Source: Acholoe squamosa (Eukaryota > Annelida > Polychaeta > Phyllodocida > Polynoidae). Taken from it: a stretch of 64,000 nt of DNA. The stretch is taken from NCBI GenBank assembly GCA_949317995.1, contig OX439037.1:73905762-73969761 (forward strand), read 5' to 3'. Below, piece by piece: positions 2,146-62,329 of the stretch. Both the position numbers and the translations under genes were made by a program. Position 1 is the first letter of the stretch. Every line of letters begins with the position of its first letter. The notes beneath the pieces are model-generated. The model had not been told where the DNA came from. It searched no databases and worked only from the letters and a program-made list of their open reading frames with translations.

Positions 2146-2192
2146 TTTATGTTCGGGTTCCCGAATGTCCTCTCATACTCCATTTATCAGCG

Positions 2193-3074: not shown

Positions 3075-3163
3075 TTCGGATTCATCAGATGGTTTATCAG
3101 GGATAGTACTCTGGCATACAACTAGTTTCCGGGTTGAGCAATCCGCCCCATCCTCAACCCTCC

Positions 3164-3640
3164 TTAATTTTCCGAATTAGGTTCTATCTCCTCAACTGCT
3201 GACATATTCCGGGGAACTGGCTCCGCAGCTCGGCATTCATAGGCTACATGACTCATTTTCTGACAGCGATAACATCTGATCCTGGACTTATCATACCTCG
3301 GTCTTCTATATCGGTGACCTTCAAGGTCCTCCCGGAAAGACTTCAGCATAGTTTCCATCATGCTCTTCATATCTAGGTTTCCAGATGGCCCACTCTCATC
3401 CTTCTTAACTATAATTTCCTTAGGTTCTGAAACATTCTTATCGCGACTCTCGGGAGCTCCCCGCCTTTGTTGAGTAGTAAAGGATCTCCTGGGAATAAAC
3501 TTCTTAGCATTCTTAGGGAACCTCAGCGCTGAGATTGTACCATCTTCTTCTTCATACTCTAGTACCTCATATTCAGCTTCAGTTTCCGAGACAGCAGCTG
3601 CTGCAGTAGGAATTACTGGTTTCAGATCAGGGAGTACCAT
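3164..3640 (-). CDS. Gypsy Gag nucleocapsid part with CCHC knuckle (fossil)
   Basis: This open stretch of 158 residues has a single zinc knuckle, CYRCQKMSHVAYEC, at about residues 123-136. It fits C-X2-C-X4-H-X4-C and is preceded by a basic run (HRYRRPRYDKSR). Such knuckles bind the element's RNA during packaging. The N-terminal part is acidic and then basic, with no other domain recognised. It lies between the capsid-like stretch and the protease. Confidence 0.85.
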   Translation of the reverse strand: MVLPDLKPVIPTAAAAVSETEAEYEVLEYEEEDGTISALRFPKNAKKFIPRRSFTTQQRRGAPESRDKNVSEPKEIIVKKDESGPSGNLDMKSMMETMLKSFREDLEGHRYRRPRYDKSRIRCYRCQKMSHVAYECRAAEPVPRNMSAVEEIEPNSEN

Positions 3641-3686
3641 ACTGGCAGTTTCCCTAGGGACAAATCCGGAAAGAAAAGTTTTCTTC

Positions 3687-5387
3687 TTATTTCAAATTGG
3701 CTATGGCATCACATAACGTCTTCATAGTGGCACCCGGACCCCATGCTTGGTAAGCACAGTCCTGGTGGTCTTTTTCTCGTAATCCTCGTACAAAGTGTGA
3801 GATCAATTCATCACTCACATAATCATCATCCATTACCAGGTTAGGTCTAGCCTTCCGTAGTAGTATCTGAAGTTCCAATCCATAAACCTGAACCGATTCT
3901 CCCGGCTTCTGAATTCTCTTCCTATACTGAGTCATCGGGTCCTCCGACACTATGTTCCCGAGATAGGAACTGCCAATCTCGACTAGCTGAGCGTATGTTC
4001 CTCTATTCCTATACTGCTCTCTCCAATGATCCACAGCAATCCTACCTGGTCCCTTTTTCAGACATCTTACCAATATGGGTAAGGATTCGTCTTCATCATA
4101 TCCATCTACCTCACGGTCGTCCGTGAAGTCCGAAAACCAATCTTTCCATGGTTCTGATCCATCGAAAGACTTAGTCTTGATCTGATTCTTCTTAGCTGAA
4201 ATCTCCCTACTTTTCAATCGGGTACATTGCTCCAGACTCCAATCCAACATCTTCTGATCCTTGGTTTTCCTACCACCCCGACCAGATCCATTAGATCCCG
4301 GACCACCGGATCCCGAATGGTTGTTGTTCGGACTGTTCCAGAAAGTGAATCCATACCCTGTGTTCATACCGGGTTGGGGTCCTGTACCCCCAGGGGCCTG
4401 AGCGCCTGTGTGACGGGTCCCTCTATCACACGGGGTATGGTTATTATTCTGATCTGTGTTGGTTTGGCTACACGTCTGATTATCCACCCTATAGGTCTGA
4501 TCGTTCGGAATAGAGTGACTGCTGTCCTGTAACTGGTCGGATATGTCACCCAGCTCATCAGCGCCCCCTGGAGGGGTGTGATTTAATTGACTAGGGGTCG
4601 GGGCTGGCCCCCTGGTGTCAATATACTGATATTCACCATCAGTGGTGAAGGTGGCATCCCTTTGACCCACACTTAGCCGGACATTCCTATCCTTACCGGG
4701 AACGTATTTGTCTCCTACGACATTCCGGGTGGCCTGATTATTCACAAAGGGGTCATACCCCTTCTTCAGAATGGGTTTTGGGGTAGAGGTGATCGGTGGA
4801 CCTTCCTCCCCACCATCCCGTGGGATACCACTGATATTGGGCTCCTCCAATGCTTTCTCATTCTCATCTGAGTCCTCACAATCCGGTTCTTCTTCACCGG
4901 AATCATCAGATCCTTCCTGCATCATTCTTAGCTTTGTAATTTCATATATAAGGTCATCCCTCTCCTGGTACAACTCCCGATTGTTATCCTGAATGTCAGT
5001 AATCAATCGATCGTTTTCCTGAATGTGCTGCTCCCGAAGGGCCACATGTTCTTTCTGTTGTTTCTCTATAATCTTCTGATTTTTCTCATAGACCTCATGT
5101 TGAGCTTCGATTTGCTTTTCTAAATCAGCAAGGCGCGCACTGGCAATATTTAGCCCCGTTCGGTATTGTCCTAGGGTCTCGTCATGCTCTGAAGTCTTAG
5201 TTTCCAAGGTGGAGGTAGCCAGACTCAGCTGCATTCCGACTTCCTCGACATTCTTCTCGTACCTCTCATACTCGGCTTTCTTACCTTGAATCATAGCCCC
5301 GATCTCCCGGAGTCGAGTACGATGGGTATCCACCTCTTGTTCCAAGGTTTCAGTGGTACGTTCTAATAATCCCTTACTTTTATTCAA
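3687..5387 (-). CDS. Gypsy Gag: coiled coil and capsid-like domain (fossil)
   Basis: This open stretch has 566 residues. Roughly residues 1-150 are a charged heptad-like region rich in Glu, Gln, Lys and Leu, typical of a coiled coil. Residues ~150-370 are acidic and then Gly/Asn/Pro-rich, probably unstructured. Residues ~385-560 look like a retrotransposon Gag capsid: FDGSEPWKDWFSDF at its start, then LVRCLKKGPGRIAVD, a YRKRIQKPGESVQVYGLEL string like the conserved 'QxPGESVxxY' segment, and HFVRGLREKD. A long coiled coil before the capsid makes this Gag longer than many gypsy Gags. Family is firm; the exact protein start is not known. Confidence 0.85.
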   Translation of the reverse strand: MNKSKGLLERTTETLEQEVDTHRTRLREIGAMIQGKKAEYERYEKNVEEVGMQLSLATSTLETKTSEHDETLGQYRTGLNIASARLADLEKQIEAQHEVYEKNQKIIEKQQKEHVALREQHIQENDRLITDIQDNNRELYQERDDLIYEITKLRMMQEGSDDSGEEEPDCEDSDENEKALEEPNISGIPRDGGEEGPPITSTPKPILKKGYDPFVNNQATRNVVGDKYVPGKDRNVRLSVGQRDATFTTDGEYQYIDTRGPAPTPSQLNHTPPGGADELGDISDQLQDSSHSIPNDQTYRVDNQTCSQTNTDQNNNHTPCDRGTRHTGAQAPGGTGPQPGMNTGYGFTFWNSPNNNHSGSGGPGSNGSGRGGRKTKDQKMLDWSLEQCTRLKSREISAKKNQIKTKSFDGSEPWKDWFSDFTDDREVDGYDEDESLPILVRCLKKGPGRIAVDHWREQYRNRGTYAQLVEIGSSYLGNIVSEDPMTQYRKRIQKPGESVQVYGLELQILLRKARPNLVMDDDYVSDELISHFVRGLREKDHQDCAYQAWGPGATMKTLCDAIANLK

Positions 5388-5896
5388 ATCCCCACTTTCG
5401 TCTTGGAGGTCTTCGATCTCTCTTTCGAATTCCTTGATCTTATTTTGTCTTCGCTCACCCTCTTTCTTCTGATATCCAGTAGTTTTTCAACCCTGGACCT
5501 CTCCTGAGCGCTCATCCGCCTCCATTCCGCATGAGCTAGTCTGTCTGATTCATAATTATTCCTTTCTTCCCGGTATCTATCCGAGGGCGTCCCGCTCACA
5601 GGAGCCGGTTGACTGGATCCACCGGGATTGAAAATAGATTCAGAAAGGAGTGCCGTATTTAGGTGGTTCAAAAAAACTCCTTGACCAGCTAATGGCACAA
5701 GGTGAATCAGATCCCTTCCCGGTCCTCGTGGTTCACTGCCGGGTACTTGGGCCAGAGTGATGGGACTACTGGAATCCCCATCTCTCAATAAGTCTGATGA
5801 TCTTATGTTAGGCGCGGTTTGGTTAGCCGGCGCTATCGGATGGTCGTCGGTTGTGACGTCCAACCCTATCGTAGAAACCTCACTTCCGGAATCCAA
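5384..5896 (-). CDS. Gypsy Gag N-terminal part (fossil)
   Basis: This open stretch of 170 residues lies immediately upstream of the capsid-like stretch, in the same direction. The sequence is polar, with a Pro/Ser/Thr-rich first half and a strongly charged C-terminus that looks like the beginning of the coiled coil. No domain is recognised in the first ~100 residues. Position is the main reason to call it Gag. The stretch between it and the primer site (about 5897-6030) would be the untranslated leader. Confidence 0.6.
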   Translation of the reverse strand: MDSGSEVSTIGLDVTTDDHPIAPANQTAPNIRSSDLLRDGDSSSPITLAQVPGSEPRGPGRDLIHLVPLAGQGVFLNHLNTALLSESIFNPGGSSQPAPVSGTPSDRYREERNNYESDRLAHAEWRRMSAQERSRVEKLLDIRRKRVSEDKIRSRNSKERSKTSKTKVGI

Positions 5897-19164: not shown

Positions 19165-20290
19165 AGTGTAAACCCTGTGGACATAGTACATCAAATCAAC
19201 ATTGACAACTGCTTGATTTGTGATGATAAACCTGTCAACACTTTTTCAATCATTCTATTTCAGTTTTGTCAACTATCACCATTTCAACCGCAGATCAACA
19301 GTTGACATATCAATGTTGAAATATTGATCTCAATTCAAAATTGCTTCAACATTGATTTGTCAATGTTCAATTAATGATATCGATTTCAATGTTGATTCAA
19401 CATTGACAGATCAACTAAGTATCACCTAACAACTATCAACATTGAATCAATGTTGAAAAATATTGAAATAATATTGAGCCAATGTTGAATCAATATAAAA
19501 ATACAAATCATAGTTGACATTTTTTTTATGCTGTGGCAACTTTAAATTCAAACATATTTCAACCTTGAATCAACTGTTGATATTCAAACATTGCAAAGGT
19601 TCATGTGCCCGCTGCCCAGTGGACACACTTAATTACATTGAATTAACATTGATGCAAAGTAGATGATGCATCATTATACACGGTTGAAGCAAGGTAGAAA
19701 TATGTTTAAATTTTACACAGCATGACCAGGTCAACTGTGGTTCAACATCTACATACTCCTGATGTGCTGATCCAATGTACTGTATTCGCTCTAATAAGCG
19801 CACACATGCGGAAAATCAATGGAAAGATGCTCAAAAACTTATTAGAAGAATTAATTCTAATAAACGTACACCCAAAGGCCCAAAGTCGTTGTTTTTGCCC
19901 TAAAGATCTTAATATTTACGTATCATTTTACACCAGGGTGGGCCCCAAAATGGAGGGGGTGTGCTTATAGAGCATGTGCGCTTATTAGAATGAATATGGT
20001 ATGTATTTCTTTGTTGACTCAACATTGTTACAACATTGATGGTTGTAAGGTGATTCGGAGTTGATATGTCAACATTGAAAATGACATTATGGTAAAATCA
20101 CTGTTGAATCAATGCTGAAATGAGAACAACATTTCAGCATTGATATGTATACTGTTGATCTGATGTTGAAATGGGGATCTTGAGAAAATTGAAATTGAAT
20201 GTGTTGAAGATAGGTTGATTGTCAATATCAACTAATTTCTTTCAGTCAATTGTCATCATTGAGTTAATTTTCTGTGTCCATTGGATAAGA
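19165..20290. mobile_element. CAACATTGA-rich inverted-repeat element(s)
   Basis: End-like strings are CCCTGTGGACAT at about 19171 and CCCAGTGGACACAC at about 19617, with an inverted TGTGTCCATTGG at about 20273-20284. The DNA between is packed with CAACATTGA/TCAATGTTGA words, many in palindromic pairs. The best single element is about 19617-20284; the left part may be a second, partial copy. Non-coding. Superfamily not assigned. Confidence 0.55.
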
Positions 20291-26887: not shown

Positions 26888-27180
26888 CACGGGCGTGGAC
26901 TGGTTACCAGATTTAGTCTTGTGTAGGTGTTATCCATATGCTATAGTAAGGGTGAGAAAGTAAAGGGAACAGTGCTGCCCTCTGGTGCCTTTATTTGCTA
27001 TGCACAGACCTTGATTACGGAGGTGAGTGGTGACTTTGCCACTCACCTCCGTAATCAAGGTCTGTGCATAGCAAATAAAGGCACCAGAGGGCAGCACTGT
27101 TCCCTTTACTTTCTCACCCTTACTATAGCATATGGATAACACCTACACAGACTAAATCTGGTAACCAGTCCACGCCCATG
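26888..27180. mobile_element. hAT-like foldback MITE, near-perfect palindrome
   Basis: This 293-bp element is almost entirely two arms: 26888-27030 and 27039-27180, with an 8-base loop. By eye the arms differ at two places only. The ends read CACGGGCGTGGACTGG and CATGGGCGTGGACTGG, resembling the CAGGGGCGTGG ends of hAT elements. An exact 8-bp target duplication, TTTGGTGG, flanks it (26880-26887 and 27181-27188), the length hAT transposases make. Matching open frames on the two strands are mirror images, not genes. The intact duplication and arm identity indicate recent insertion. Confidence 0.9.
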
Positions 27181-32190: not shown

Positions 32191-32199
32191 ATGGTGAAC

Positions 32200-32322
32200 A
32201 AGTAATCAATGGATAATTCATGACGAGTGTGTGTTAGCAAAGGATAATTACACGAGGGTATAGCCCGAGTGTAATTATCCTTTGCTAACACACACAAGTC
32301 ATGAATTATCCATTGACTACTT
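32200..32322. repeat. Long hairpin, ~52-bp arms
   Basis: The left arm starts at 32200 and runs through TCAATGGATAATTCATGAC and GTGTGTTAGCAAAGGATAA to TTACAC. It is matched almost perfectly by the right arm ending at 32322. The loop is about 16 bases (GAGGGTATAGCCCGAG), itself partly self-complementary. Probably a MITE-like palindromic element; no target duplication was identified. Confidence 0.8.
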
Positions 32323-32389
32323 ATTTTATTCCACAAAACCAATAGATAATCAATAGAATATCAATAAATTCAAGTTGAAAACAAAAATT

Positions 32390-38009: not shown

Positions 38010-38382
38010 ACACAGTAGCTGACAGTAGCTAGATATTTAGAAATATGACGATATCTAGATACACGAGGAAGACGCACACAGACGTACAAATGAAAGACAT
38101 GTGACACTCACTGGTTTAAAACAAAAACAATAATGGGATTTCTGCAGAACCTCATTAGTGAATGAGACATATAAGAAGACATGTCCTTCATAGCATGACC
38201 TCTGGAATCTTTGGCCTACCAAGGTAGACCGAGACACTACATTAAGTTATTAGTAGCTGAAGCTCAGTGTACATCATTTTGTTGACAGAATAAATTAGTT
38301 ATAATCTCTAGTTACAGACCTTTGTAATTGAGTTTGAGATGAGGATCTGGATGTTTTCTCTAGTACAAGATATCCCTACTGT
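38010..38382 (+). repeat. Duplicated unit, copy 1, left part
   Basis: AGCTAGATATTTAG, ATATGACGATATCTAG, GGGATTTCTGCAGAACCTC, TAGTGAATGAGACATATAAG, GAGACACTACATTAAGTTAT and GATGTTTTCTCTAGTACAA match 59.04-59.45 kb in order. The match stops at the left end of the 8.5 kb insert. Confidence 0.8.
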
Positions 38383-39209
38383 ATTGTAGCTCTGGGGCTG
38401 ATAGGGCCCACCATGCATCCCCCCACATCCCAACATGAGAGGTATTTTTTCGATCCTAGGGTCCCCTGAACAAGATTCAAGATGTTAACATTGATTATTT
38501 TTGGATGCACTACCGGTTTTTGCTCATTATCCATGTGTGGGTTCAGACCACTTTTGGGTCAATTTTGCTCAATCCCTAAGCTCTAAGACTATCTTACCTT
38601 ATCTGGATCCTGAAGCTATAGGTTTTGTTGGAAAGAAGACATAATAAGCTTTCCATTAAGCTCTAATACATGTTTTTAAGTTCAGATTGGAGGGTACCAG
38701 ATGGTCGGGAAGACGGAAGATTGAAATCACATAGTTCCTTTTTTAACTGAAAATTTTAAATGCACTCCAGATACATGTATAAAACTTGCTCTTATCCCCA
38801 TCTAACCACAATATCTAATATGATTTAGGTAGGCCAAAGCTTTCTGAGTAATATGAGATATTTTGCAGCATTCCTTGTTGACTATGACCCACGGTATTGC
38901 CTTAGAAGCGAAGACACTGCTGTGAGTCAATACAATGCTGTTCCATTTCAATAATCTACCTCTTTATCTAAATGGATGTTTTTCCATGCTAAATCTTTAT
39001 CAATTCTCCCGACTCTTATGTAAAAATGGGTGCTGATTAAGAATGTACATGTTTCTACTTCATAAAATTCAAGCAAGGTTGTATATGGCTGAAATTCAAA
39101 ATGACCAACAATAGATTCAAATATCACTTTGAATTACATATGTGCAGTCTAGAAAGTATCTTGTGGGTCCTACCCCTTATAAATCAGCATAGTAGAATAC
39201 AGTGGTGCT

Positions 39210-39680
39210 TTTGTTTTGTTGCTAGGTGGTGTGGTTGCCTAGCAACAGTAGCTTTGCATAGCAACCAAGCTGAAAATATGCTCAAATGTGGAATATGCAT
39301 GGTTTCCTTTCAGTAACATAATCACCTGATATAAATTTGCATATAACTCTTCTGTGACTTCCATCATAGACGAGGAATATAGGTGATAAAAGGTTGCTAG
39401 GTTGTGTGGTGGCCTAGCGATAGCGGTTTTGCATAGCAACAAAGCCTAGATTCATACCTGTAGGCATATACTATGTCTTGTGCATAGTCTCCTCTCAAGG
39501 ACATAGTTCAATTGCATATAGCTCCCCTGTGCCATCACACAGTATGAACATAGGTAGTAAATGGTTGCTATGTCATGTGGTTGCCTAGCAACTGTAGCTT
39601 TACATAGAAAGCCATGTACAAATATATGCAGATAGTCACAGATAAGTGTATAGTCTTACCCCAAGAACTTGTATGTATAG
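39210..39680 (+). repeat. Three ~172-bp tandem repeats with X-box-like palindromes (left arm)
   Basis: Units begin near 39217, 39391 and 39563, each with GTTGCTA-G then a TGCCTAGC palindrome and a GCATAGCAAC string. GTTGCCTAGCAAC is exact in units 1 (39234-39246) and 3 (39580-39592) and degenerate in unit 2. It fits the RFX-factor X-box consensus. Confidence 0.75.
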
Positions 39681-40102
39681 CTCCCAAGAAACATCTCAGA
39701 ATAGAAGCATATATAACAGTATGCAAGGTCATTTGCTTGATGTTATTCTACCTTATAAAATCATCTAATTGACAGAGACCATATATAATGAAATAATGAT
39801 AAAATGATAAAATATTTGCTTCATCCATACCCTGTGTTATTTTGTATATACATATCCGTGCATATATGTATCTCAGATCATCCATGATTACACAGGATTG
39901 TAGTTCCTAACAACTGTCCCCTCCCCCTCATGTCAAATTCCTGTAACCACTGTCATATCAAAATTTACCATTGCTGGTACTGAAAACACACATTTAGAAC
40001 ACAGAGGATTGGCTCTGAGCCTCATAATGTACTGCATGCCTAATTGATTATCCCTAAAGCTTTGGGCAGCCTACTTGTCTGAAAGTAAATGCAAGGTGGT
40101 TA

Positions 40103-40640
40103 GTAGTATATAATGTATCGGAACAGGACTATAGCTAACTACAGGATATTACTCACTGGGGATGCAGCCAATCAGAGGCCTCCATTTGGTCACGTGACCT
40201 GAACCGCCCGCAGTGCATGGCCATATATGGTCATGTGACCTTAACCTTGACCTCATTTTCATAATAGGCCATGCCCCATTGACCTAATTAGGGGATTAGC
40301 AACCACCTCTCACCCAATCAGAGGACGGCATTCTGGTTACAATGGTAACATGACCTAATTAGGACACCATCCACAGATACATAGGGTGAGACCGCCTGTA
40401 GTAATTCTCTTTTTATCCCCACACCCCTTACACCTGTAAGCCGCATTAGTACATAGAAGGGTGGTAGGTGAAAAAAAAAGAAAAATTATATTTTATTTTA
40501 TTTGTATATGTGCATGTGTCTGAAAAAATGGCAAACTGAAAGCTTGTTAAGAAAAAAATAAATAAATAAAAAAAAGCTGGGAAATATTTCGGTGACCTTT
40601 GAGGTGGGGGGGCCCAAAGTATTAAGTTATTTTAATATTA
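40103..40640 (+). repeat. Inner left arm of the foldback element
   Basis: Inverted match to 43221-44040. Shared strings include CTAATTAGG, GGTCACGTGACC, GACGGCATTCTGGTTAC, GGTGAGACCGCCTGTAGTAA, AAAGCTTGTTAAGAAAAAA and AGCTGGGAAATATTT. The right copy has ~280 extra bases. Confidence 0.8.
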
Positions 40641-41439
40641 GTGAAACCGCCCCATGGGCGGGTTCACGTATAAGCCATGTATTTTACGATAGAGCACTGC
40701 TGTTTTTTTGCAAGCCACCAAAGTGAGGGGTGTGTCTTATACATGAGGATTTTGTACTTTAGAGTAGTACTAAACTGCTAAAAATACATGCCTGTACATG
40801 GCACTAGACCATACAACTAATGTTAAAGACAAATGCTGGTGGATGAGTGGTAAAGAAGTTGTGTTGATTTTTGCCTATACCTTTGGATATCATTAGGTTT
40901 ATATATAGGGATGAAGGAAATGTAAAAATAGTGAAGTGTCACCGAGCTTAATTCTCTGGGAAAGGGCTGTAATGAAGGAAGGCCTATAGGAGTCAATGGG
41001 AAAATTTATGACCTCATTTCTTGCCAAAATATCTTTCATGTTCTGTTGCTATTTTCAAATACTTTTAGATTATGATAGTTGGATATGTATAGAAGTGAAA
41101 AATGCAAAGAGATGCATATATGACCCACCTCACTTTTGTGTATTGGACCATTTAAGTACAGCATGCTTCCAAAATGATGTTCACATTCAGGTTTAAAAAT
41201 ATTCACCTTTTCCTTATCTCAACTGTGATATATGGAAAGTATGAATGTCCTGGATTTTAAAACTAGCTTTATATATTTTCTAAGTTGAGGCAAAGTCTAT
41301 CAAAAGTGTGATACAGAAAGTGTCAGGTGTAGCCCTCAGTGCAGTGCCCTTCAGTGTGGATACTATTAGGACCATGAGACCTGATGAGTGAGTACGGTGT
41401 AGGCCTACCTATGTGGATTTTTCTCCAACTTAACTTTAT

Positions 41440-41851
41440 ATTGGGAGCGCTGCTGTTCATATGCACAGACATGGACACATGTCCTCATTTGTGACAGTGA
41501 TGTCTAATCAGAATTTTCTCGCAATGAATATTCACTCTAAAAATATCCACAATACCTATCATGGATTCTCGTTAAACTGAACAATGAACCACTGTTGTTG
41601 CATTATAGTGAATCAGTGTAGTTTCTACAATGAAGCAGTACAGTACACACTGTGGTACAAGGAATCTCAGGACTTTTCTAGCCCACTTAAAAGGGTCTAT
41701 TTCTCCTATTTTCTATTCCCTCAGGTGTGTGTGGTCCACATATGCGCAGGCACTGACACATTCCTCTGTGAAATTGTGTAATGTCATTCTCGCCATGAAT
41801 ATGACCGTAGCTGTCGAAATGGTGTTAAAGACCTATTACTCACTCACTCAC
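41440..41851 (+). mobile_element. SINE-like units with CACTCACTCAC tail
   Basis: Two related units share TCATATGCACAGACATGGACAC (first) and CACATATGCGCAGGCACTGACA (second), then TGTGA, TGTCTAAT and CGCCATGAATATGACC. The second ends GTGTTAAAGACC followed by CACTCACTCAC, a tail common in invertebrate SINEs. Relatives are at 62.33-62.57 kb. No A/B-box head was identified, so these may be 3' parts only. Confidence 0.6.
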
Positions 41852-42442
41852 AAGGAATCTGTGTGAAAATGATGATGGTTCTCTGGCAATGTTGGGACAA
41901 GGATTTTACCGGGTTTTATTTATAATTTCACCTACCTTACACAACTTTAAAATTTAGTCACCCACATTTGATTTTAAAGATTTACAGAATTTAAATGATA
42001 CAAAAGTCATAAAGACACGTTCAAAAATTTTCTCACCAACCAAAAAACTGATAGAGCCAGTGTATCAGCGTCAAGTCGAAAGCACAATATTATCTGTGGA
42101 CATACAAGAAGCTGGTTCCAGCATGCAAGGACTGTGGTTATATTGAAAATAAGTTTGAAAATATCTTCTAGAACACACTTCACATTGGTACCTGCACAGT
42201 AATGTTGTTCCCATTTTTATTGTGAAGTCGAGACGTGGCACACAGCCGATGTGAAGGATTGACTTTTGTGTGAGAAGTTAGTCAAAAAAAAATTTTGGTG
42301 GCAATTCTTTGGAAAAAGGGGTGAAATTGGAAAACTCCATATCAGTTACCTACCCCCTGTTGCACCTACTCCTATTACTACTGCTGCTTTTGTACCCACT
42401 GCTACTACTGCTCCTGCTACACCCTATCTTATATACTACCTT

Positions 42443-42546
42443 GGTAATCCCTTTTTCACCTGCCTTACACAAGAGTGCTTTGATGGTATTTACAAATATG
42501 CTCCTCCCTTTGAGATCTTTAATACCCAGGTGAAAAAGGGATTACC
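42443..42546. repeat. Exact 20-bp inverted repeat, 64-base spacer
   Basis: GGTAATCCCTTTTTCACCTG at 42443-42462 is matched exactly in reverse at 42527-42546. The short string GAGTRCTTTGATGGTATT occurs just inside the left arm, just outside the right arm, and again inverted at about 43507-43527. Confidence 0.8.
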
Positions 42547-42732
42547 TCAGGTAGAGTACTTTGATGGTATTAACCCCGTCCCCGCACTCCACAATCGGTA
42601 TACCCCTATTCCACGGATCTTAGCCCAAAAATAACCCCTATTTCATCGACAAAACACAGATATTTAGGGCCGCACAAGTTCCCCCTATTTTTCAAAAATC
42701 CTATCTATTGCTCAGTACCTTTTGATATAGTA

Positions 42733-42919
42733 CAGTCATGTCTCTATAAACCAGCCACCTCCGTTTGAGATAAAATTTGACTGGTTCTTGAATCGAATGG
42801 TTCTCTGAATTATGATTACAATTGAATTCAATGGATATAATCAAATCTGTTTGATGGCAAACTTGGCTGGTAAGTGAATCAACCGACCTATTGAAGACTG
42901 GTTTATAGAGACATGACTG
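42733..42919. mobile_element. Tc1/mariner-like MITE with TA target duplication
   Basis: This 187-bp element has exact inverted ends CAGTCATGTCTCTATAAACC, flanked by TA on both sides (42731-42732 and 42920-42921). Ends starting CAGT with TA duplication are typical of Tc1/mariner. Non-coding; it lies near the centre of the foldback element. Confidence 0.8.
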
Positions 42920-43045
42920 TAGAAAGAAGTCTCTCTCTTCCGTTTATCAAACTTTCACAGCCGCCAGACCAACAGGCCATTAAGTATCCAAAATCACGCG
43001 ATTAATGAATATAGTGTCGATAACGACGCGTTTCGGCTAATAACG

Positions 43046-43158
43046 TCAGAACCGCTGCTGCTGTTGGTGCTGCTACTGCTGCTGCTACTGCCGCTATTGC
43101 TGCTACTGCATTGCCACTGCATGCTGCTGCTGCAGCAGCAGCAGTAGCAGCAGCAGCG
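43046..43158. repeat. CTG/CAG trinucleotide tract, partly self-complementary
   Basis: About 90 bases of interrupted GCTGCTACTGCTG repeats turn at a CTGCAG centre (about 43132) into CAGCAGCAGTAGCAGCAGC. The tract can fold into a long hairpin. GGCTAATAAC occurs directly on both sides. Confidence 0.75.
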
Positions 43159-43220
43159 ATTCAGGCTAATAACAGCTTATAACGCTGGCCGGTACCTGCT
43201 GAGGCGACAATGCAGCAGTA

Positions 43221-44040
43221 TTAATATTAAAATAACTTCGGGCCCCCCCATCCCAAGGGTCACCCAAATATTTCCCAGCTTTTTTTTATTTATTTAATTT
43301 TTTCTTAACAAGCTTTCAGCTTGCCTTTTTTTTCACACACATGCACATATGCAAATAAAATCAAATATAATTTTTCATTTATAATTTTCACCTACCAACC
43401 TTGGATGTCTAATGCGGGTTACATGTGTAAGGGTGTGGGGATAAAAACAGAATTACTACAGGCGGTCTCACCCTATGTATCTGTGGAGGTGGTGGGAAGC
43501 ATATTTTTTAATACCATCAAAGTGCTCTTGATCTCGGTAACATCACAGGTGTTAGAAACTGTGATAATTACCACATGCTGGTGATAGCCAGGCTTCTGAT
43601 TGGTTGGATGGCTGACCCTCATTTGCATTATGGTGTTGTGTTTTACTTGCTATATAATTTTTTTTTATGTATATTATATACCTCATTTGCATAATTAGCC
43701 CTGCCCCATTGTTTACAAATGAAGGACCACGTGGCTAGGCCACGTGGCTAGGCCATGTGTTGTTTACACACATGGGGTCAGGTGATCGCACTAAGCTCCT
43801 AATTAGGTCATGTTACCACGGTAACCAGAATGCCGTCCTCTGAGAGGTGGTCGCTAATCCCCTAATTAGGTCAAGGGGGTATGGCCTATTATGCAAATGA
43901 GGTCAAGGTTAAGGTCACATGACCATATATGGTCATGCACCACGGGGGGTCCAGGTCACGTGACCAAATGATTGGCTGCATCCCCAGTGAGTAGTATCGT
44001 GTAGTTAGCTATAGTCCCGTTCCGATACATTATATACTAC
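43221..44040 (-). repeat. Inner right arm of the foldback element
   Basis: Inverted match to 40103-40640, with extra sequence between about 43500 and 43780. That extra part includes a tandem CCACGTGGCTAGG pair near 43731. GTTACCACGGTAAC at 43812-43825 is an X-box-like palindrome. Confidence 0.8.
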
Positions 44041-44864
44041 TGTGGTTTCATTCACATATTGAGAAAATGAAAGAGAAGGCTTGGAATGTAATTGTACAAT
44101 TCTCAGGATATTCTCTCATCTGTTACCTCTTCAGAGCATCAGGCCCAGTGTTATCCATCCTCACATATCATTACATTCTGGTTCAACTTCTCTCATAGCA
44201 GAGAATCCCAACAGCTGGGGATTATGCTGCTGGACACTTCTGAGAAGGCATGTTGATCTGTTATAGTTTATTGTCCCCAACACATGGTGTAGTGAATTAC
44301 TAGTTGACCCTGTTAATACTACTGAAGGCCACTGGCACACAGACCTTGAGTATCTTCTACCATTCCACATCACTCACAGTGGACATGGTGGTTGATTGGT
44401 CTAGCTTATAGAAGAGGGAAGTGTCATCCATATTGTACAAACTCCTCCTATCATATCTAGAAAGCACCTGAGGCTACTGTTGTGCTTCTGTCACCTTCAA
44501 TTGAATCTGCAGTCTCTCTCTCTTAATGGATCCTATGACTGGAGATCATATGCCTGCCTTTGACAATTGAAAGCCATCTTTTAAAGTTACCCAGGGTTTG
44601 AACATTGACCTGCCCACTACAGTGCCAAGTCATCTATTGCATATTTTAAACAGCAATCACAGACTTGACCACTAACTCTGTAATTCATTTTGCAGGAAGG
44701 TTTGATTAACATGGGAGAGAAAAAAAGGATAGTATGTTGAATGGCTGTAATAAATACATAACTTCAAATGGACAGAATACTTAATGGGGGGTTTATTGGA
44801 TGTGTGACCACTATCAATAATGTCTGACACAAAGTAGCAAGTAGCTATTAGGATCAAGCTAGCC

Positions 44865-45125
44865 ATTCTAGAATATTGGCTGGCAACCTGCCTGTATATT
44901 GGAGACATGATACAAGAGGTTACTAGTCAATCATCCCCGGTTTTCCACCTCACTCACAAGGGCACCCTATCACCGCAATGCTTTATCTGTCTCTCCTATA
45001 CAGATATTTGGAATATAAAGTGTGATTGGAGATACAGATATTTGGAATATAAAGTGTGATTGGAGATCTAAAACCCAAATCTAGTGGAGTTCAAGTGAAC
45101 TATTCCCCAGGATCTGGGGAAATAT
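44865..45125 (+). repeat. Repeat with inverted copy at 51.99-52.24 kb
   Basis: GGGCACCCTATC, TTTATCTGTCTCTC, GTGATTGGAGATC, TAGTGGAGTT and GGATCTGGGG match the reverse strand of 51985-52245. Within it an exact 34-bp tandem duplication lies at 45000-45067 (two copies of a unit starting ACAGATATTTGG); the copy at 52 kb has only one unit. Confidence 0.75.
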
Positions 45126-45589
45126 AACCTCCCCCTATCTCTAACTTGAGCTGTCATGAAGATAAACATTCCATCTTGGGAGTATGAATGTATGGTATGA
45201 ATAAATGAATTACCACAACAACAATAACAACAACAAAAACCCTTACACCATCCAAACAAACATTTACCACCTTGTTCTTGTGTTATTGTAGCCAATAATT
45301 TTACACAACTAGACTGATTTCCTGGGATTGATCATCTCTTAACCTAGCCAGACTCTCACTGATAACTTCAGAATCCTAATACTGTAGGTTTACTTTAAAA
45401 AATTATCTGTCATTTGAGGTCTGTTTAATGATCCTAGCACTCATCATCCCCAGTTAGGGTTAGTAAGCCTGTAGTTCCTATCCAGATCGCTATTCTATTT
45501 AAACAATGCTCTAGAATAATCATGACTATAGATGCTCTTTACCATCAAGGTTCCTTTTCCCAACCTACACTACTATTGAGAATTGTATG

Positions 45590-46100
45590 TTACAATTCAT
45601 TTCTGAGGCGAAACCATATACTTATCTGTGACTCTCTCAAGAAATGTGGACATGGGGTTCTAAGTAAAGCTGCAGTTGCTAGGCAACCACATGACATAGC
45701 AACCATTAACTACCTATGTTCATACTGTGTGATGTGCACAAGGGAGCTATATGCAATTTGAAATCAGTGAACTATGTCCTTGAGAGGAGACTATGCACAA
45801 GACATAGTATATGACTACAGGTATGGATCTAGGCATTGTTGCTATACAAAACTGCTATTGCTAGTCCACCACACAACCTAGCAACCTTTTATCACCTATG
45901 TTCCTAGTCTATGATGGAAGTCACAGAAGAGGTATATGCAAGTTTACATCAGGAGAGTATGTTGCTGAAAGGAAACCATGCAGATATGCACATTCGAGCA
46001 TATTTTCAGGCATGGTTGCTATGCAAAGCTACTGTTGCTAGGCAACCACACCACCTAGCAACAAAACAAAAGCACCACTGTATTCTACTAAGCTCATTTA
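45590..46100 (-). repeat. Tandem repeats with X-box-like palindromes (right arm)
   Basis: Mirror of 39210-39680. Exact GTTGCCTAGCAAC (reverse strand) lies at 45675-45687 and 46034-46046, with the middle unit degenerate (about 45856), the same pattern as the left arm. The pattern therefore predates the split of the arms or is kept alike by exchange. Confidence 0.75.
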
Positions 46101-46936
46101 TAGGGATGGGACCCACCAGATACTTTCTAGACTGCACATATATGTAATTCAAAGTGACATTTGATTCTATTGTCGGCCATTTTGAATTTCAGCCATATAC
46201 AGCCATTAAATCTCATGAAGTAGAAACATGTATGCTCTTAATCAGCACCCTTTTTTTACATAAGAGTCGGGAGAATTGATAAAGATTTAGCATGGAAAAA
46301 CATCTATTTAGATAAAAAGGGAGATTATTGAAATGGAACAGCATCATATTCGCTTACGGACACAGTAGTATCTTCCCTTCTGAGGCAATAACGCGGGTCA
46401 TAGTCAAGAAGGAGTGCTGCAAAATGTCTCATATTACTCAGATAGGTTTGACCTACATAAATCATATTAGATATTGTGGTTAGGTGGGGACAAGAGCAAG
46501 TTTTTTTACATCTATCTGGAGTGCATTTAAAATTTTCAGTTAAAATAGGAACTATGTGATTTCAATCTTCCATCTTCCCGACCATCTGGTACCCTCAAAT
46601 TTGAACTTAAAAACATGTATTAGGGCTTAATGAAAAGCTTAGTATGTCTTCTTTCCAATGAGATCAATAGCCTCAGTATCTAGACAAGGTACGATAGTCT
46701 TAGAGCTTAGGTATTGAGCATACCCCTTGAATAACATGGTAGCAAAATTGACCCAAAAGTGAACCCGCACATGGATAATGAGCAAAAACCGGTAGTGCAT
46801 CCCAAGATAATCAATGTTAACATCTTGAATCTTGTTCAGGGGGACCCTAAGGATCAAAAAAAATACCAGTCCCGTTGGGATGTGGGGGGGGGGTGCATGA
46901 TGGGCCCTATCGGCCTCCGGCCTATTGGACATTGTA

Positions 46937-49810
46937 TGGATACATAGGTTGTTATATTTCTGCTTGGATAATTATGGTTTGATCACGACCAAATAAAATC
47001 CTATGGAGTAGCACTGTATACAAATGACATTTCCTCTCCATAAAAGGATGATTGCTGTCTCCCATTATTGTAATACAGGGATTCCCCATGAAAAACAGAC
47101 TTTTATAGTGTAGACATAGTATCATAGGATAAGTAGGCCCAGTGGTCATATGACAGGTCCACTTTATTGATCTTCTATCACCAATAAATATGGCTGTACA
47201 TACATCATCCTCCCTCTGTATTCACTGCACTGTCTGGTCAGTTACTAAGGTTATACCAGCCCTCCTTACACATGCTTTGAAAGCATAGATTATAAAATGG
47301 CTATACATAGAAGCAGCATCAATCATTGTAACGGTGAATGGCTTCAGTATATAACTTGGAGAAACCAAATGTTATGCATTGTCCATCGAAGGAACTTCTA
47401 CTCCAAAGGAATAGAGGTGAAGCTTTTTATCACAGTAAGGTATTTCTCAATAATGAGAAGTTCCATCACTGGAGGTCATTTCTCAATGCACTACAATTGC
47501 ACGCAGTCCTTAGACTTGAAATCCCAATGCTATTCCTACGAGGATTTTGATGCAATTTTTAGGGTGCGGTCAGAGTGTGTTAAGAAATAACCTCCTGAGA
47601 AATGCCTTCCAGATCTAAAAGGTCATGGCTACAAAATATATATACAGCCAACTTCTATGACAAAAAGAGTCACATAAAAAGAAATGATTACATGTTATGG
47701 TTTGTCAAGACATTGAAGGAATGGCCTACATCGATCGTTATGTTTTCACCCTGCCTTAACCCCTCACTTTTATCTAACTACCTTTGATTTACTATCTATG
47801 ACCAACCATCATTTACACAAACTTTCACCTTCCTGCACAAGTCCAGAAAGTCAGGGAATATGGAGGGGCTAATTTTCTGCCCTCATGTGATTGGCTACTT
47901 TACCACAGCTCCCTTTTAGTCAGTAATGAGAACTAGCTCACAGGGGCAGAAGCACTTCCGGCCTAAGGTCAAAATGAAAAGGGCCCAGCGTCCTTCATCA
48001 GAAACACTGAGAAATTCACACGAACGCCAACCCCTTCCTGTCAGCCTCCTGCTCACTCTCCCACTTCCGGTGTCAGAGACTCATGTGACGTCGTTTTCTC
48101 ATTGCCATGGCGTGATCTTGTGTGCCATACTTTACTGTGTGGCCACTATAGGGCTAGGTAATTTTTTTATCAATAGGAGAGTTAATGGATCTTTGGCGAG
48201 ACTAGCGATTTTCCAGGACCCTCATTAGAAGGGTTGACTTTTCTTTTCCAACCACTTCCTTTGTACTACAGTAATGCGCAGGCTTTTGCATTGGAATTTG
48301 ATGATATTTGACCAGTCCCCCCCTACCGTTCCCATATAGACTCATAAAAATGAACACTCCCTTACTATTCAGAGGGGGGTGTCTGTGTAAGACTAATCAG
48401 CGTAGTCAACCTTTACGTGCCCAGAGCTATTTGATGATTTTCCATTTATTTCACAAGTACATCACCCCAGTGATAAAGACCATGTATATATAATTCTGAA
48501 CAGGTCATTGATATGGAATTCACATTATGCACCTGATTCTTTTTTACTTCAACTTTCAGTTTAGAGAGAAATTTCTGACTGAGTGTGGTTACCATAGCAA
48601 CCAAAATGTTCCTTTTGTTGTTATTCACTAGTATAATAGTCTCTTTAGTGTTGTGCTGCTCTAATCTCATTAAGTGTGAGGTTTGCATAACTAAACTCAA
48701 CTAGTTCTGTCCAACTACCAGGTACTACCAGGGTGCAAAATGTATTGGTCACAGTTCATGAAATCATTTACATGGATATGAACAATTCCTATGAATGGAT
48801 TAGTTGTAAGGTTGGCAAGTCTATCAAAGGTGTGGCAGTAGGGGACAAATGATCCAGCATCACTTTGCTATCATGCTAGATCCTATCTCCTTGGGAGATT
48901 TCCCTTCAAAGAGTCACATGTATGACAACTTATTTTCAGGTTTTGCCTCACTGTGTGTGAGGTAATGGAGATACAGTCAAATAGATGGTCTCATTGGAAT
49001 AAGGGGGTCATGGCTGTTCTAGTGAGGGTATAACTTTGCAGGTTGGACCAGTAGATGTTCCTGGATGAAAAACTGTTTCAATATGCATGTATTTAAGTAT
49101 AAAACCGCGCATTTAAGCGTGCCTGGGCACCTAAGGGCTAATTGGCTAAGGCTGTTGCAGTAATGAACAAAATACTTTCTTGATAATATGAGTAAATCGT
49201 GGGTTAGAATATAGGTGTGCTCTCCATAGGTTTACATTTTCTCCTGGCAGATAGCTTAATAATTACAGGAAATTGGGAAGGAATAAGTGTACCGATGGTG
49301 CACATGAATATATTTCAACAGGATTGTGGTAGAAATTGATGGACCATACAATGCCATCAACAAGACATTGTAGATTTTAACAGCTCGCATGCGCTCATTG
49401 ATTCCGTAACAAAAACCATAATCAAAAAAATACATACTTTCTGTCACTGCGGTCAAATGAAATGTTTTGTTTACCCCACTTCTATCACCAATAAGTAAAG
49501 CACTGCATTAGACTACCTATGCACATTATTACAAAAATAATGCCCTTGTGATCAGTGTCTACCAGACTCTGTCTGAAGGGGGAAGTACTAATACCCACAG
49601 AATTAGCCCCGATAATGGCACAGGGAATCCCTGACCGTCACCACCTGGGTCCCATCCTCCTAAACTAGTTTCTCTCACACTCGCCCTAACTGGCCTCCAA
49701 TCCAGACTAAGAGGAAGTCAAGGGTCCAAATAGAAGGCAGGGGTTGTTTAAACATCTTCCAAAACCTAGGTTGCTAAAGTCTCAGAATATTACCTAAATC
49801 ATATTCAGTT
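46937..49810 (+). repeat. Duplicated unit, copy 1, right part
   Basis: Ordered matches to 59.64-62.23 kb: GTACATACATCATCCTCCCT, GAATGGCTTCAGTATATAAC, ATAACCTCCTGAGAAATGCC, GAGGGGCTAATTT, TCACTCTCCCACTTCCGGTG, CTTGCAGTAATGAAC-like, CACCACCTGGGTCCCAT and AAACCTAGGTTGCT. The two copies differ by small gaps and many substitutions, so the duplication is old. Non-coding as far as I can see. Confidence 0.85.
48061..48115 (+). promoter_or_regulatory. Possible TATA-less promoter cluster (ETS, CRE, YY1-like)
   Basis: CACTTCCGGTG (ETS type), TGTGACGTCG (CRE half-site) and GCCATGGCG (YY1 type) lie within 55 bp. The same three, slightly changed, sit together in the duplicate copy at about 60987-61042. 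This combination is common in ubiquitous TATA-less promoters, but no transcript or gene start is visible here. Confidence 0.25.
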
Positions 49811-50990
49811 TTCCTTGTACAAAGAATTCAATTAATTCCATGTTGAGAACAGCAGTTCTTAAAGTAAAGCATAGGCAAACCCATTCCCTGTCAGGGCATG
49901 AAGAAACTGAATCTCATTCCCCACGGCCCCAATCTCCCCTGTGGCATCATCAAAATAGCCTTGAACCCCATAATCAAAAGTGGTTTTTGAGTGCTCCTTT
50001 ACCTAGGAAACATGAAATAAATACAGAGATCCACTAGAATTACTCCAATCTGAATGTTTCTTCACTTGGTTGCCTCAAAGCAGGATTCCAGGAGGCTCTC
50101 TCGTGAAGATACACTCAGTTTGAAGTAATGCCCGTAAACCTCTGTCTATTTTCACACATTATAACCTAATTATAAAGACACTATAGTCATCCTCCAATTC
50201 ATTAAGAAGAAATAACAGTTTCAAGCACGAAAATTCATTATAATTCTTAGTGAACAAGAAATACATTACAGTCACTAGCTACATAATGAATGTAATGCCC
50301 TGCAAGGGAACAATCTTTGTGGAAACAAATGGAACTTTAGTAACAAAGGATCAGAACAAGAGACAAATCATCAGATGTAAACAATTGGCGATTCCCCTGA
50401 ACCTGTCTTCGCAAAAGGTTCAGAGCGAGTGCAAATAGACTAATCCTATTCAGTCCAAATAGACAATGAATGCCATTGGATTGCTAGATCTGTACACACT
50501 TAAAAGTGTCCTTTCCAATTTAGCTTTCAATGTTCACTTATTTTCTGTTTTGTTAGTCATCAGATTTTCTCAATAGCATTTTGATTGAAACATTGCAATA
50601 GAGTAGTATGAAAGGGTACATGCGGTGCTTCAGGATGAGACTATTGACATCAGCCAATGGAAACTTTAGAATGGGCTCTAAGAAGCAATGCCTTTATGTA
50701 TAAGAACACCCATTGATGTCTTCTTTCTTTGAACTACTATGGAGGCACTTGAGTATGGTATACTCATATTCATTTCTCATGGATTCATTTCAAGGGTCAT
50801 AGTTGTGATTCTCCAATAAATTTAATGTAGTTCAGGCATATTTAAATTAGGCCTTTGAATATCAAAGGTACCCTAAAATGGCATGTCCACACCTATGCGT
50901 CTCATTGATCAGAGGGCTATATAAGCATCAGGAATGCAATTTACAAAGCATTTCTTAGCCTGTATAAATTATTTAGCTTTTTGAGGATGT
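49811..50990. other. No gene seen
   Basis: AT-rich sequence without recognised coding or repeat structure. A lone GCTATATAAGC at about 50919-50929 resembles a TATA box but has no supporting gene. Confidence 0.4.
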
Positions 50991-51984: not shown

Positions 51985-52245
51985 TCCCCAGATCCTTAAA
52001 CTCCACTACATCGGAGTTAAAGATCTCCAATCACAGTTTATATTCTAAACATTTCTATATGAGAGACAGGTAAACCATTGGGGGGATAGGGTGCCCCCTT
52101 GTAAGTAAGGGTGGAAACAGGGGTTGTTGACTGGTAACTTCTTAGGCATGACCTGCCTATATCATGTCCCCAATTTAACATACAGGTAGGTCGCCAGCCA
52201 AGGCTAGGTTGAGCGTAATGCTCATATATGCCACCTATAATAGTA
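51985..52245 (-). repeat. Inverted copy of the 44.87-45.13 kb repeat
   Basis: CCCCAGATCC, AACTCCACTA, GATCTCCAATCAC, GAGAGACAGGTAAA and GATAGGGTGCCC match the reverse strand of 44865-45125. It lies outside the foldback element, so the 45 kb copy is probably an independent insert in the right arm. Confidence 0.75.
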
Positions 52246-52927: not shown

Positions 52928-52995
52928 GCCCTGTGGCCTAATGGATAGCATGAAGCACTTTGGATCAGAAGATTGCTGGTTCTAGCAATGTAATA
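52928..52995 (+). ncRNA. tRNA-Arg-like sequence (SINE head or pseudogene)
   Basis: TGTGGCCTAATGGATAGCAT is close to the 5' half of animal tRNA-Arg (TGGCCTAATGGATAAGG). It is followed by TTTGGATCAGAAGATTG, near the tRNA-Arg anticodon arm (TTCGGATCAGAAGATTG), and GGTTCTAGCAATG in place of the T arm (GGTTCGANTCC). The T arm is damaged and the acceptor does not close, so it is not expected to be a working tRNA. It runs straight into hairpin B. Confidence 0.65.
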
Positions 52996-53125
52996 TATAA
53001 TGAATAGACTTGAACGAATGCCTTTCAGGGGATGATATAGACACGATGTGAAGCAGAGTGCCTATATAAAGCCCCTGAAAGGCATGACTTCAAGTCTATT
53101 CATTACACATTCTGTTTATAGCATG
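52985..53125. repeat. Hairpin element B
   Basis: The arms 52998-53031 and 53072-53105 pair at 31 of 34 positions, with a 40-base loop. The outer flanks AATGTAATATATAATGA and ACACATTCTGTTTATAGCATG match those of hairpin A, while the stem sequence itself (AATAGACTTGAA, CCTTTCAGGGG) is unrelated to stem A. Confidence 0.8.
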
Positions 53126-59029: not shown

Positions 59030-59450
59030 CTGGTCCGGGGTAGACAGTTACTTAGCTGACAGTGCAGCTAGATATTTAGGTATATGACGATATTATCTAG
59101 GTATATGAGGAAAGCTAGATATATATTTATAAGGGGGCTAACTGAACAGAGAGACAGGCACACAGATACAAAAGACATGCATAGACATATGAATGGAGGA
59201 CACCAGGTGAGCGTGACACTCACTGAAATTAAATACAATAATAGGATTTCTACAGAACTTCATTAGTGAATCTGACATATAAGACATGTCCTTCACAATG
59301 TGACCTCTGAATTCTTTGGACTGTCAAGGTAGACTAAGACACTACATTAAGTTATTAGTAGATAGCTATGATCTCTAGATATGGAACCTTGTCATTGAGT
59401 TTGAGGTTAGGATATAGATGTTTTCTCCAGTACAATAAATCCCCTACTTG
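59030..59450 (+). repeat. Duplicated unit, copy 2, left part
   Basis: Matches 38010-38382 (GATATTTAGGTATATGACGA, TAGGATTTCTACAGAACTTC, GACACTACATTAAGTTATTA, GATGTTTTCTCCAGTACAA). It is followed after ~190 bp by the right part rather than by a foldback element. Confidence 0.8.
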
Positions 59451-59639
59451 AAACAAAAAGAAGTAACATTATTCAGCTGAAAAGACAATGGAAAATGGCA
59501 CCCGGGAGCATTTACAAGCTTCATGTTTCATAAATATCCCTTGACAAGAAAACAAGAAAAAAAGTATAATTACGATTTAATGAGAAGCCAGAAATAGATT
59601 TCATTGGTTATCGTTTTCAGAGGATACATTGAATAAATT

Positions 59640-62235
59640 ATAAATATGGGTGTACATACATCATCCTCCCTCTATTCACTGCACTGTCTGGTCAGATACT
59701 AAGGTATCTGATTTTCTTATGCATTGTACATCTTTGCCACCCAATAAACTACTTTAAAAGGTTATACCAGCCCTCCAGATTATAAATTGGCTAGACATAG
59801 AAGCAACATAAACCATCGTTATGGTGAATGGCTTCAGCATATAACTTGGAGAAAACAAAATATAATGTTATACATTGTTCTTTGAAGGAATATAACTTAG
59901 TCCAAAAGAGTAGGGAGAAGCTTTCTATCACAGGGGGGCATTTCTCAATAATGATAAGTTCCATCGCGGGAAATAATTTCTCAATTCACTACAATTGCAC
60001 ACATTCCTAGGACTTGAAACCCCAATGTTATTCCTATGGATATTTTGGTGCAATTTTAAAGGTGCAGTTGTAGGTACAACTTTAAAGGTGCTGTCGTAGT
60101 GTGTATTCCACCCTCTTTTCATGTTGACTTTGTTTGCTAGTCTTTTACATGAATAATTATAAACAGATTCCGACTTAATCAGTGTCACACCTGTTATCAA
60201 TATTGTCTAGTACATTATGTGACTTCAAAATTGGGCCAGATGCACCAAGTAGTGCATTGTTTAGCCTTAGGGGCTGTTGCAACCATGCTCATAATTATGA
60301 TACTAAGATGTTTGGCGACCCTAGCACAAGCAGTTTCAAAGGCACCTTTGAGGGGCATTTATTTGCAGATAAGCAGTGCTTTGCAGTCAATAGTGTGATG
60401 CATTTGACCAATGGTGATGTCATTTAATACAACTTTACAATAGCAGATTTTTTATCCATTACAAATCCTACCAAATGAAATCATAATGAAAATAGGGTGG
60501 CCTTTTCTTTTAAGAAATAACCTCCTGGGAAATGCTTTCCAGATCTACAAAGGCATAGCTGAAAAATATAACCAACTTCTATGATTTAAAGAGTCACACA
60601 AAAAAGAAATGATTACATGCAACCACTGGTCAAGACATTGAAGGAATGAACTACATCAATCATTATGTATTTACCCTGCTTTAACCCCTCTCCTTTATCT
60701 AACTACCTTTGATTTACTATCTACGGCCCACCATCATTTATACACTCTTTGACCTTCCTGCACAAGCCCAGAGAATCAGGGAATATGGAGGGGCTAATTT
60801 CCTATCCTCATGTCATTGGCTACTTTACCACAGCTCCCCCTTTATTCAGTAATGAGAACTAGCTCACAGGGGCAAAAGCACTCTTGCCCAAGGTCGAAAT
60901 GAAAAGGGTCCAGCATCCTTCATCAGAACCACTGAGAAAGTCACACACACGCCAATCTGTTTCCTTCAGCCTCCTGCTCACTCTCCCACTTCCGGTGTCA
61001 GAGCCTCATGTGACGTAATTTTCTCATTGCCATGGTGTGATCTCGTGTGCCATACTTTACGGTGTTGCCACTAGGGCTGGGACGTTATTTATCAATAGGA
61101 GGGTTAATGAATCTTGGGCGAGCCTAGCAATTTTCCAGGACCCTCATCGTTGACATTTTCTTTCCAACCACCACCTTTGGAGAACAGAAAGGTGCAGGCT
61201 TTTGCACTGAAATCTGGTGATATTTGCCCCTCCACTATTCCCCCACCCCTTCATAAAAATGAACCCTCCCTTATTCAGAGGGCAGAAGTCAGGGTAAGAC
61301 TAATCAGTGCAGTCACTTATTGGCTAAGGCTCTTGCAGTAATGAACACGATAATTTCTTAGACACTATACAAGTCAGTCTTGGGTTAGAATATGGTGTGC
61401 TGTCAATAGACATGCATATTTGCTCCTGAGGGTTGATAAGTAATGTTAAAAGAAGATTTGTTCATTGAAATGATCAGATTGACGTCATTTCATGTTGAGA
61501 ATAAAACCTTTAATGGAAATCATTTACAGTTTTACGGTAAAGTCAATGGAGCATGTTGTGAATTGCATCAAAATGATCAAGAGTATTTTTTCACAACCCT
61601 CACAACAATTATTTTCAAACAAAATCTATAACTCATAATTCTTTATCATATTACTGGTCAACCTGGGCTGATAGTTTAACCAATACAGGAAATTAGGAAG
61701 GCATAAGTGCTGAAAATGAAATCTTTCAACAGGGATTAAACAGTAGTAAAACTTGATTAACCAGCATGTTTTCCTTATTCTTAAGTTCATGAATCATTTT
61801 GATGGGATAAACATACAGTACCATCAACAAATCATTGTAGATTTCAACAGGCCCCATCAGCTCATTGATTCCATGAACATCTTTTCTGTCACGATGGTCA
61901 CATGACCCCACTTGTATCACTGATAAATAATGTATTGCATTAGACTATCTATGCACCCTAGTGCCCTTGTGTATAGTGCCTCCTAGACTCCTAAAGGGGG
62001 CAGCACTAATATCCACAGAATTAGCCCTATAATGGTACAGAGAATCCCTGGTCGTCACCACCTGGGTCCCATTCTCCTAAACTAGTTTCTCTCACACTCC
62101 CCCTAACTGGCCTGCAATCCAGGCTAAGAGAAAGTCAAGATTTCTAGGTAGAAGGCAGGAGCTGTTTAAACATCAAAACCTAGGTTGCTTAAGTCTCAGA
62201 ATATCACCTAGATGATATTTAGTTTTACTTATACA
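59640..62235 (+). repeat. Duplicated unit, copy 2, right part
   Basis: Matches 47.18-49.81 kb in order over about 2.6 kb, including the ETS/CRE/YY1-like cluster (about 60987-61042) and the segment with CACCACCTGGGTCCCAT. Small frames here are not conserved with copy 1. Confidence 0.85.
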
Positions 62236-62329
62236 AAAAATTCAAGTGCAATACAACGTCATACTGGTGAATATAACACACATGTGTATATATATGTTGT
62301 ATGTTGGGCCTCCCCAGCCCCAGGCCATC

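Follow-up and report, generated by a model that had tools for sequence, protein, structure and literature searches.

The question raised by a 64-kb stretch of the genome of the annelid Acholoe squamosa (contig OX439037.1; the whole analysed stretch is called the window below) is whether the 8.5-kb insert at its positions 38389-46922 is a single element or a stack of independent insertions. A sequence-only reading had described the insert as two nested pairs of inverted arms forming one large palindrome. This apparent giant palindrome is best read as two unrelated insertions, one within the other. Including a small insert found further inside, we consider it likely that one copy of a duplicated, animal-like unit holds three nested class II insertions: a foldback-like outer element, an inner element with Maverick-type ends and a TA-flanked mini-transposon. 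Our verdict on the structure as a whole is that of nested non-autonomous DNA elements of known kinds.

Inverted and direct matches were taken from a self-alignment of the window, with matches of at least 60 columns printed. This recovered both nested arm pairs at nearly the coordinates given for them before. The outer pair aligned 38396-39654 with 45613-46915 over 1,312 alignment columns (1598 bits), and the inner pair aligned in two blocks, 40102-40364 with 43797-44041 and 40365-40640 with 43222-43491. Across 20 mononucleotide shuffles of the segment no inverted match scored above 37.4 bits, compared with the 1598 observed; the inverted arms are real, far beyond chance. The inner pair delimits the following features:

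40096..40101, plus strand: left copy of the inner target duplication, GTGGTT
40102-44041: inner element, 3,940 bp, with inverted arms and ends 5'-AGTAGT...ACTACT-3'
40102..40640, plus strand: inner left inverted arm, 539 bp, beginning AGTAGT
40641..43221, no strand: inner core, 2.58 kb, without a recognisable gene
42733..42919, no strand: third-level mini-transposon, 187 bp, with TA on both sides (42731-42732 and 42920-42921)
43222..44041, minus strand: inner right inverted arm, 820 bp, ending ACTACT
44042..44047, plus strand: right copy of the inner target duplication, GTGGTT

The two copies of GTGGTT are identical at 6 of 6 positions and abut both inner ends exactly where the arm homology stops, at AGTAGT. 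Of random pairs, 0.03% match in an exact 6-mer at a fixed place, and AGTAGT is found at 0.03% of positions per strand. No mutual match was found between the inner and outer arm sets (BLAST, E up to 1e-3). The inner arms were 93.5% identical over 511 columns in two blocks, giving a Kimura two-parameter distance (K2P) of 0.068 (95% range 0.046-0.094) that excludes about 305 bp (43492-43796) present in the right arm only, and the outer arms were 90.5% identical over 1,263 aligned columns (K2P 0.102, 95% range 0.083-0.121). Because the inner pair has a target duplication and an end motif of its own, no match to the outer arms and a lower divergence, it is interpreted as an element that inserted separately into the outer core. 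The description as one large palindrome gives way to an insertion stack with an estimable order.

The mini-transposon at 42733-42919 has perfect 22-bp inverted ends, CAGTCATGTCTCTATAAACCAG, or a 24-bp perfect inverted match if the flanking TA is included. Its CAGT...ACTG ends, TA flanks and 187-bp length are shared with Tc1/mariner-type mini-transposons. The inner element is further marked by a 13-base sequence, CTTTGATGGTATT, with three exact matches in the window, all of them within the inner element (42478, 42559 and, on the minus strand, 43510); the last falls inside the 305-bp block that is confined to the right arm.

Pfam was the sole family library run on the insert segment, using its six frames with X at stops and ten of 53 overlapping stop-to-stop open reading frames (ORFs), four of the ten lying mainly in the inner core. 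No family reached the cut-off in the six frames of 38389-46922 or in the ten ORFs, although a badly decayed gene could escape such a scan, and in the outer element copy no transposase was detected (Pfam, six frames). The only rows obtained were below cut-off: Fibre_HD (0.062), DUF1450 (0.049), DHHC (0.025), ICMT (0.093), YbhQ (0.11) and DUF5693 (0.96). A PDB sequence search with the ORF of 123 amino acids at 42263-42634, in the inner core, gave nothing at E up to 1.

The inner element resembles Maverick/Polinton elements at its ends. In a study of vertebrate Mavericks, the commonest end motif is given as (AGT)2//(ACT)2 on the 5' and 3' sides; target duplications there are 6 bp long, and the inverted repeats span 46-1,447 bp (PMC8097293). 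A curation guide likewise lists 6-bp duplications and long inverted repeats for the Maverick/Polinton order, and notes as a general point that non-autonomous counterparts exist for many autonomous families (PMC8969392). The inner element shares with these the 6-bp duplication GTGGTT/GTGGTT, AGTAGT at 40102 with ACTACT ending at 44041 ((AG)3//(CT)3 being an alternative motif), and arms of 539 and 820 bp, within the vertebrate range. Since these terminal features agree with Mavericks and the length and gene content do not, we read the element as a putative non-autonomous Maverick-like derivative with the cis features of a Maverick, and not as a Maverick proper. An origin from a different superfamily that likewise makes 6-bp duplications and has AG...CT ends would fit the shortness of the terminal motif, the absence of any Maverick gene detectable by Pfam in six frames and a length far under the range published for intact vertebrate elements. 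We regard such an origin as unlikely, as an exact (AGT)2//(ACT)2 and an exact 6-bp duplication coincide here and the long arms lie within the published range.

A more specific form of the Maverick-like reading, which we put forward tentatively, is that the inner element represents Maverick satellites, a family of short elements without genes. These minimal replicons, consisting of ends only, would be replicated and integrated by a helper Maverick, and one of them would have jumped into the foldback. If this is true, Maverick satellites would be the chromosomal counterpart of a defective-interfering genome; if copies share the ends and 6-bp duplications, they could help to define the minimal cis sequences for Maverick copying and integration. 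Phrases for non-autonomous or miniature Polintons/Mavericks had no match in the literature searched, and no title or opening of an abstract among the papers listed, nor passages of PMC8097293, PMC6431247 and PMC8969392, described a non-autonomous Maverick. This is weak evidence of novelty, since subscription papers lay largely outside the literature searched and since the curation guide makes the general statement cited above. That a 3.9-kb element in which no gene was detected has Maverick-type ends is the one point that specialists would take up.

The outer element into which the inner one is set comprises:

38382..38388, plus strand: candidate left target duplication, TATTGTA
38389-46922: outer element, about 4.6 kb without its insert, of foldback-like build
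38389..39660, plus strand: outer left inverted arm, about 1.27 kb
39218..39610, plus strand: diverged tandem units of the left arm, starting at about 39218, 39393 and 39564 (the third partial), about 175 bp apart
39661..40101, no strand: outer core left of the inner insertion, no Pfam match reaching cut-off
44042..45605, no strand: outer core right of the inner insertion, no Pfam match reaching cut-off
45606..46922, minus strand: outer right inverted arm, about 1.32 kb, pairing with the left one
46923..46929, plus strand: candidate right target duplication, TATTGGA

The tandem units, with between-unit matches of 67-69%, have their mirror image at about 45660-46062 in the right arm. Both arms also carry a near-palindrome, GTTGCCTAGCAAC, of which all four exact matches in the window (39234, 39580, 45675 and 46034) lie in the arms. 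With up to two mismatches, eight matches were found in the window compared with 1.51 expected, a number reached in none of 100 shuffles, and seven of the eight were in the outer arms. GTTGCCTAGCAAC appears to resemble the X-box bound by RFX factors, and a transposase or a host factor might bind it. Because the arms combine diverged units of about 175 bp with GTTGCCTAGCAAC near-palindromes, the architecture is classed as foldback-like. The sequence-only reading, which had pointed to foldback-like, internally repetitive arms without a detectable transposase, is thus upheld for the outer element by the repeat units and the blank six-frame scan, and the element is probably a non-autonomous foldback-like transposon. 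A stretch of its core, 44876-45095, resembles 51995-52201 on the opposite strand.

In the register in which both outer arm ends are equal, TATTGTA and TATTGGA match at 6 of 7 positions. Only 0.19% of random pairs reach at least 6/7 at one fixed place, but several registers were scanned here; the pair is no more than a probable outer target duplication, favoured by us over the competing registers. The ATTGTA reported earlier at both outer edges is indeed present, at 38383-38388 and 46931-46936. As a duplication it is disfavoured, since it shifts the arm ends by 8 bp against each other, one arm being that much longer than the other, and since an exact 6-mer is shared by 8.9% of random pairs of 24-base stretches of the window. 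The imperfect duplication, together with the lack of further copies of the arms in the window, would suit outer arms that arose as an inverted segmental duplication rather than as a transposon. This is quite unlikely in our view: arm homology stops in register on both sides beside the 6/7 direct repeat, the left outer edge lies within about 10 bp of the end of homology to the duplicated flank described below, and the arms carry repeated near-palindromic motifs. It is highly improbable that the insert is a single composite foldback that moved as a whole, one inverted-repeat domain nested in another. In its favour, the four arms are in concentric order and exact ATTGTA flanks lie outside them; against it, the inner arms are bounded by an exact 6-bp duplication and an end motif of their own, lack a BLAST match to the outer arms and have diverged less.

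The age of the stack can be approached through a second copy of its flanks. The unit flanking the insert, 38016-49831 (copy A), has a diverged direct duplicate:

59053..62245, plus strand: copy B, without the 8.5-kb insert

The existence of a duplicate lacking the insert, on which the sequence-only reading had based its dating, was confirmed. Based on five of six matching blocks (the 60-column block 38016/59053 was excluded), A and B were 84.3% identical over 1,947 ungapped columns (K2P 0.178, 95% range 0.158-0.199). On the left, A/B homology runs sharply to CCCTACT at about 38380/59448, within about 10 bp of the outer edge; on the right it restarts only at 47184/59640, leaving about 260 bp of right flank without an alignable counterpart in copy B. 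The stretches 46923-47170 (248 of 261 bp) and 59449-59630 (182 of 191 bp) were unalignable, their local score of 17 being equalled in 315 of 500 shuffles, and copy B was rejected as a base-precise empty site because of this right junction. The dating by an unoccupied duplicate stands in that the insert is absent from copy B and the left edge is sharp, but with the right junction lost it is no more than approximate. The duplicates also differ, with tighter edges, by about 730 bp at 48409-49137 that copy A has and that B lacks at 61315/61316.

The A/B divergence exceeds that of the outer arms (K2P 0.178 compared with 0.102), and insertion after the duplication is therefore consistent with the data. 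Any such age order assumes that arms were identical at insertion, that no gene conversion or homogenisation took place and that rates were equal. Under these assumptions the inner insertion was probably later than the outer one: 33 of 511 columns differed between the inner arms compared with 120 of 1,263 between the outer arms (Fisher p 0.040), and the fraction of bootstrap replicates in which outer divergence was no greater than inner was 0.0125. The order of insertions as a whole is supported by these divergences but not proven.

Several observations weigh against this nested reading. The outer duplication is imperfect and has two competitors, an exact TATTG (5 bp), which shifts the ends by 2 bp, and the exact ATTGTA, which shifts them by 8 bp. 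Outside the insert, the arms of either element occur nowhere else in the window (BLAST, E up to 1e-3). The inner arms differ by the 305-bp block at 43492-43796, which has no counterpart in the left arm. The 3,940 bp of the inner element contrast with the 12.7-24.6 kb given for intact vertebrate Mavericks (PMC8097293), and genes for a protein-primed polymerase, integrase, ATPase, protease and capsid were undetected in it by Pfam. The 14-base inner end, AGTAGTATATAATG, has five matches with up to two mismatches in the window compared with 1.02 expected, namely its own two ends and three further matches at 23289, 30063 (minus strand) and 52989, each with two mismatches, which may be chance or remnants of related ends. 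As to order, the 95% K2P ranges of outer (0.083-0.121) and inner arms (0.046-0.094) overlap, and by part the distances were 0.111 in the distal and 0.085 in the proximal half of the outer arms and 0.060 and 0.075 in the inner blocks, the outer proximal value lying close to the second of these. Exact end and arm motifs had no matches in viral contigs and prokaryote genomes, which was expected because the genome is animal-like, and which says nothing on copy number in the host.

The nested structure suggests a sequence of events in which mobilisation in trans, the identities of the enzymes, the class of the outer transposase and the existence of other copies are what we infer. In a first step, a non-autonomous transposon of about 4.6 kb with long, internally repetitive inverted arms would have inserted beside CCCTACTG. 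A transposase supplied from elsewhere would have bound and cut its arms, with the tandem units in them as likely secondary binding sites of that transposase. Later, the 3.94-kb element with Maverick/Polinton-type ends would have entered the outer core, duplicating GTGGTT; it would have been copied by a protein-primed polymerase and integrated by an integrase, both provided in trans by an autonomous Maverick. The 187-bp TA-flanked mini-transposon would have entered the inner core in a third step, or may already have been carried there beforehand.

Elsewhere, the window (40% G+C; CpG observed/expected 0.38) contains a retroelement on the minus strand at 397-5896, in which one ORF matches reverse transcriptase and RNase H and a separate ORF matches protease; based on these matches it is presumed to be of the Ty3/gypsy type. 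No Rfam family was found at gathering score in the whole window, and no tRNA in a scan of the whole window that used the bacterial code. A 293-bp, near-perfect hairpin at 26888-27180, 96.6% self-complementary, is probably a young mini-transposon, and other self-complementary stretches lie at 32197-32325 (89%), 52992-53111 (78%) and 19294-19581 (68%).

Among known foldbacks, the outer element can be compared with Tetris of Drosophila virilis, which has internal repeats of about 220 bp, known copies without a transposase and duplications of 8-10 bp (PMC4079207), and with Tm1, which has 9-bp duplications (PMC3169594); a sea-urchin foldback element, TU, is cited in the Tetris paper (PMC4079207). 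In autonomous foldback or Galileo-like copies, a transposase of P type or Mutator type would be expected. Long or composite inverted arms are common to Tetris, Tm1 and the outer element, which differs in that its symmetric register has no match of 8-11 bp at up to two mismatches, the best within 3 bp of that register being 6/8. Galileo of Drosophila mojavensis, a foldback-like member of the P superfamily, includes two copies whose arms measure 1,263 and 1,264 bp and contain three tandem units, each about 210 bp long, that are proposed to hold secondary transposase sites; 7-bp duplications are given for most Galileo copies (PMC3573991). The outer element differs from Galileo in the lack of a detected transposase and in a 7-bp match of only 6/7, and is likened to it by description, not by sequence; it shares with Galileo long inverted arms (1.27 and 1.32 kb) that carry internal tandem units (about 175 bp).

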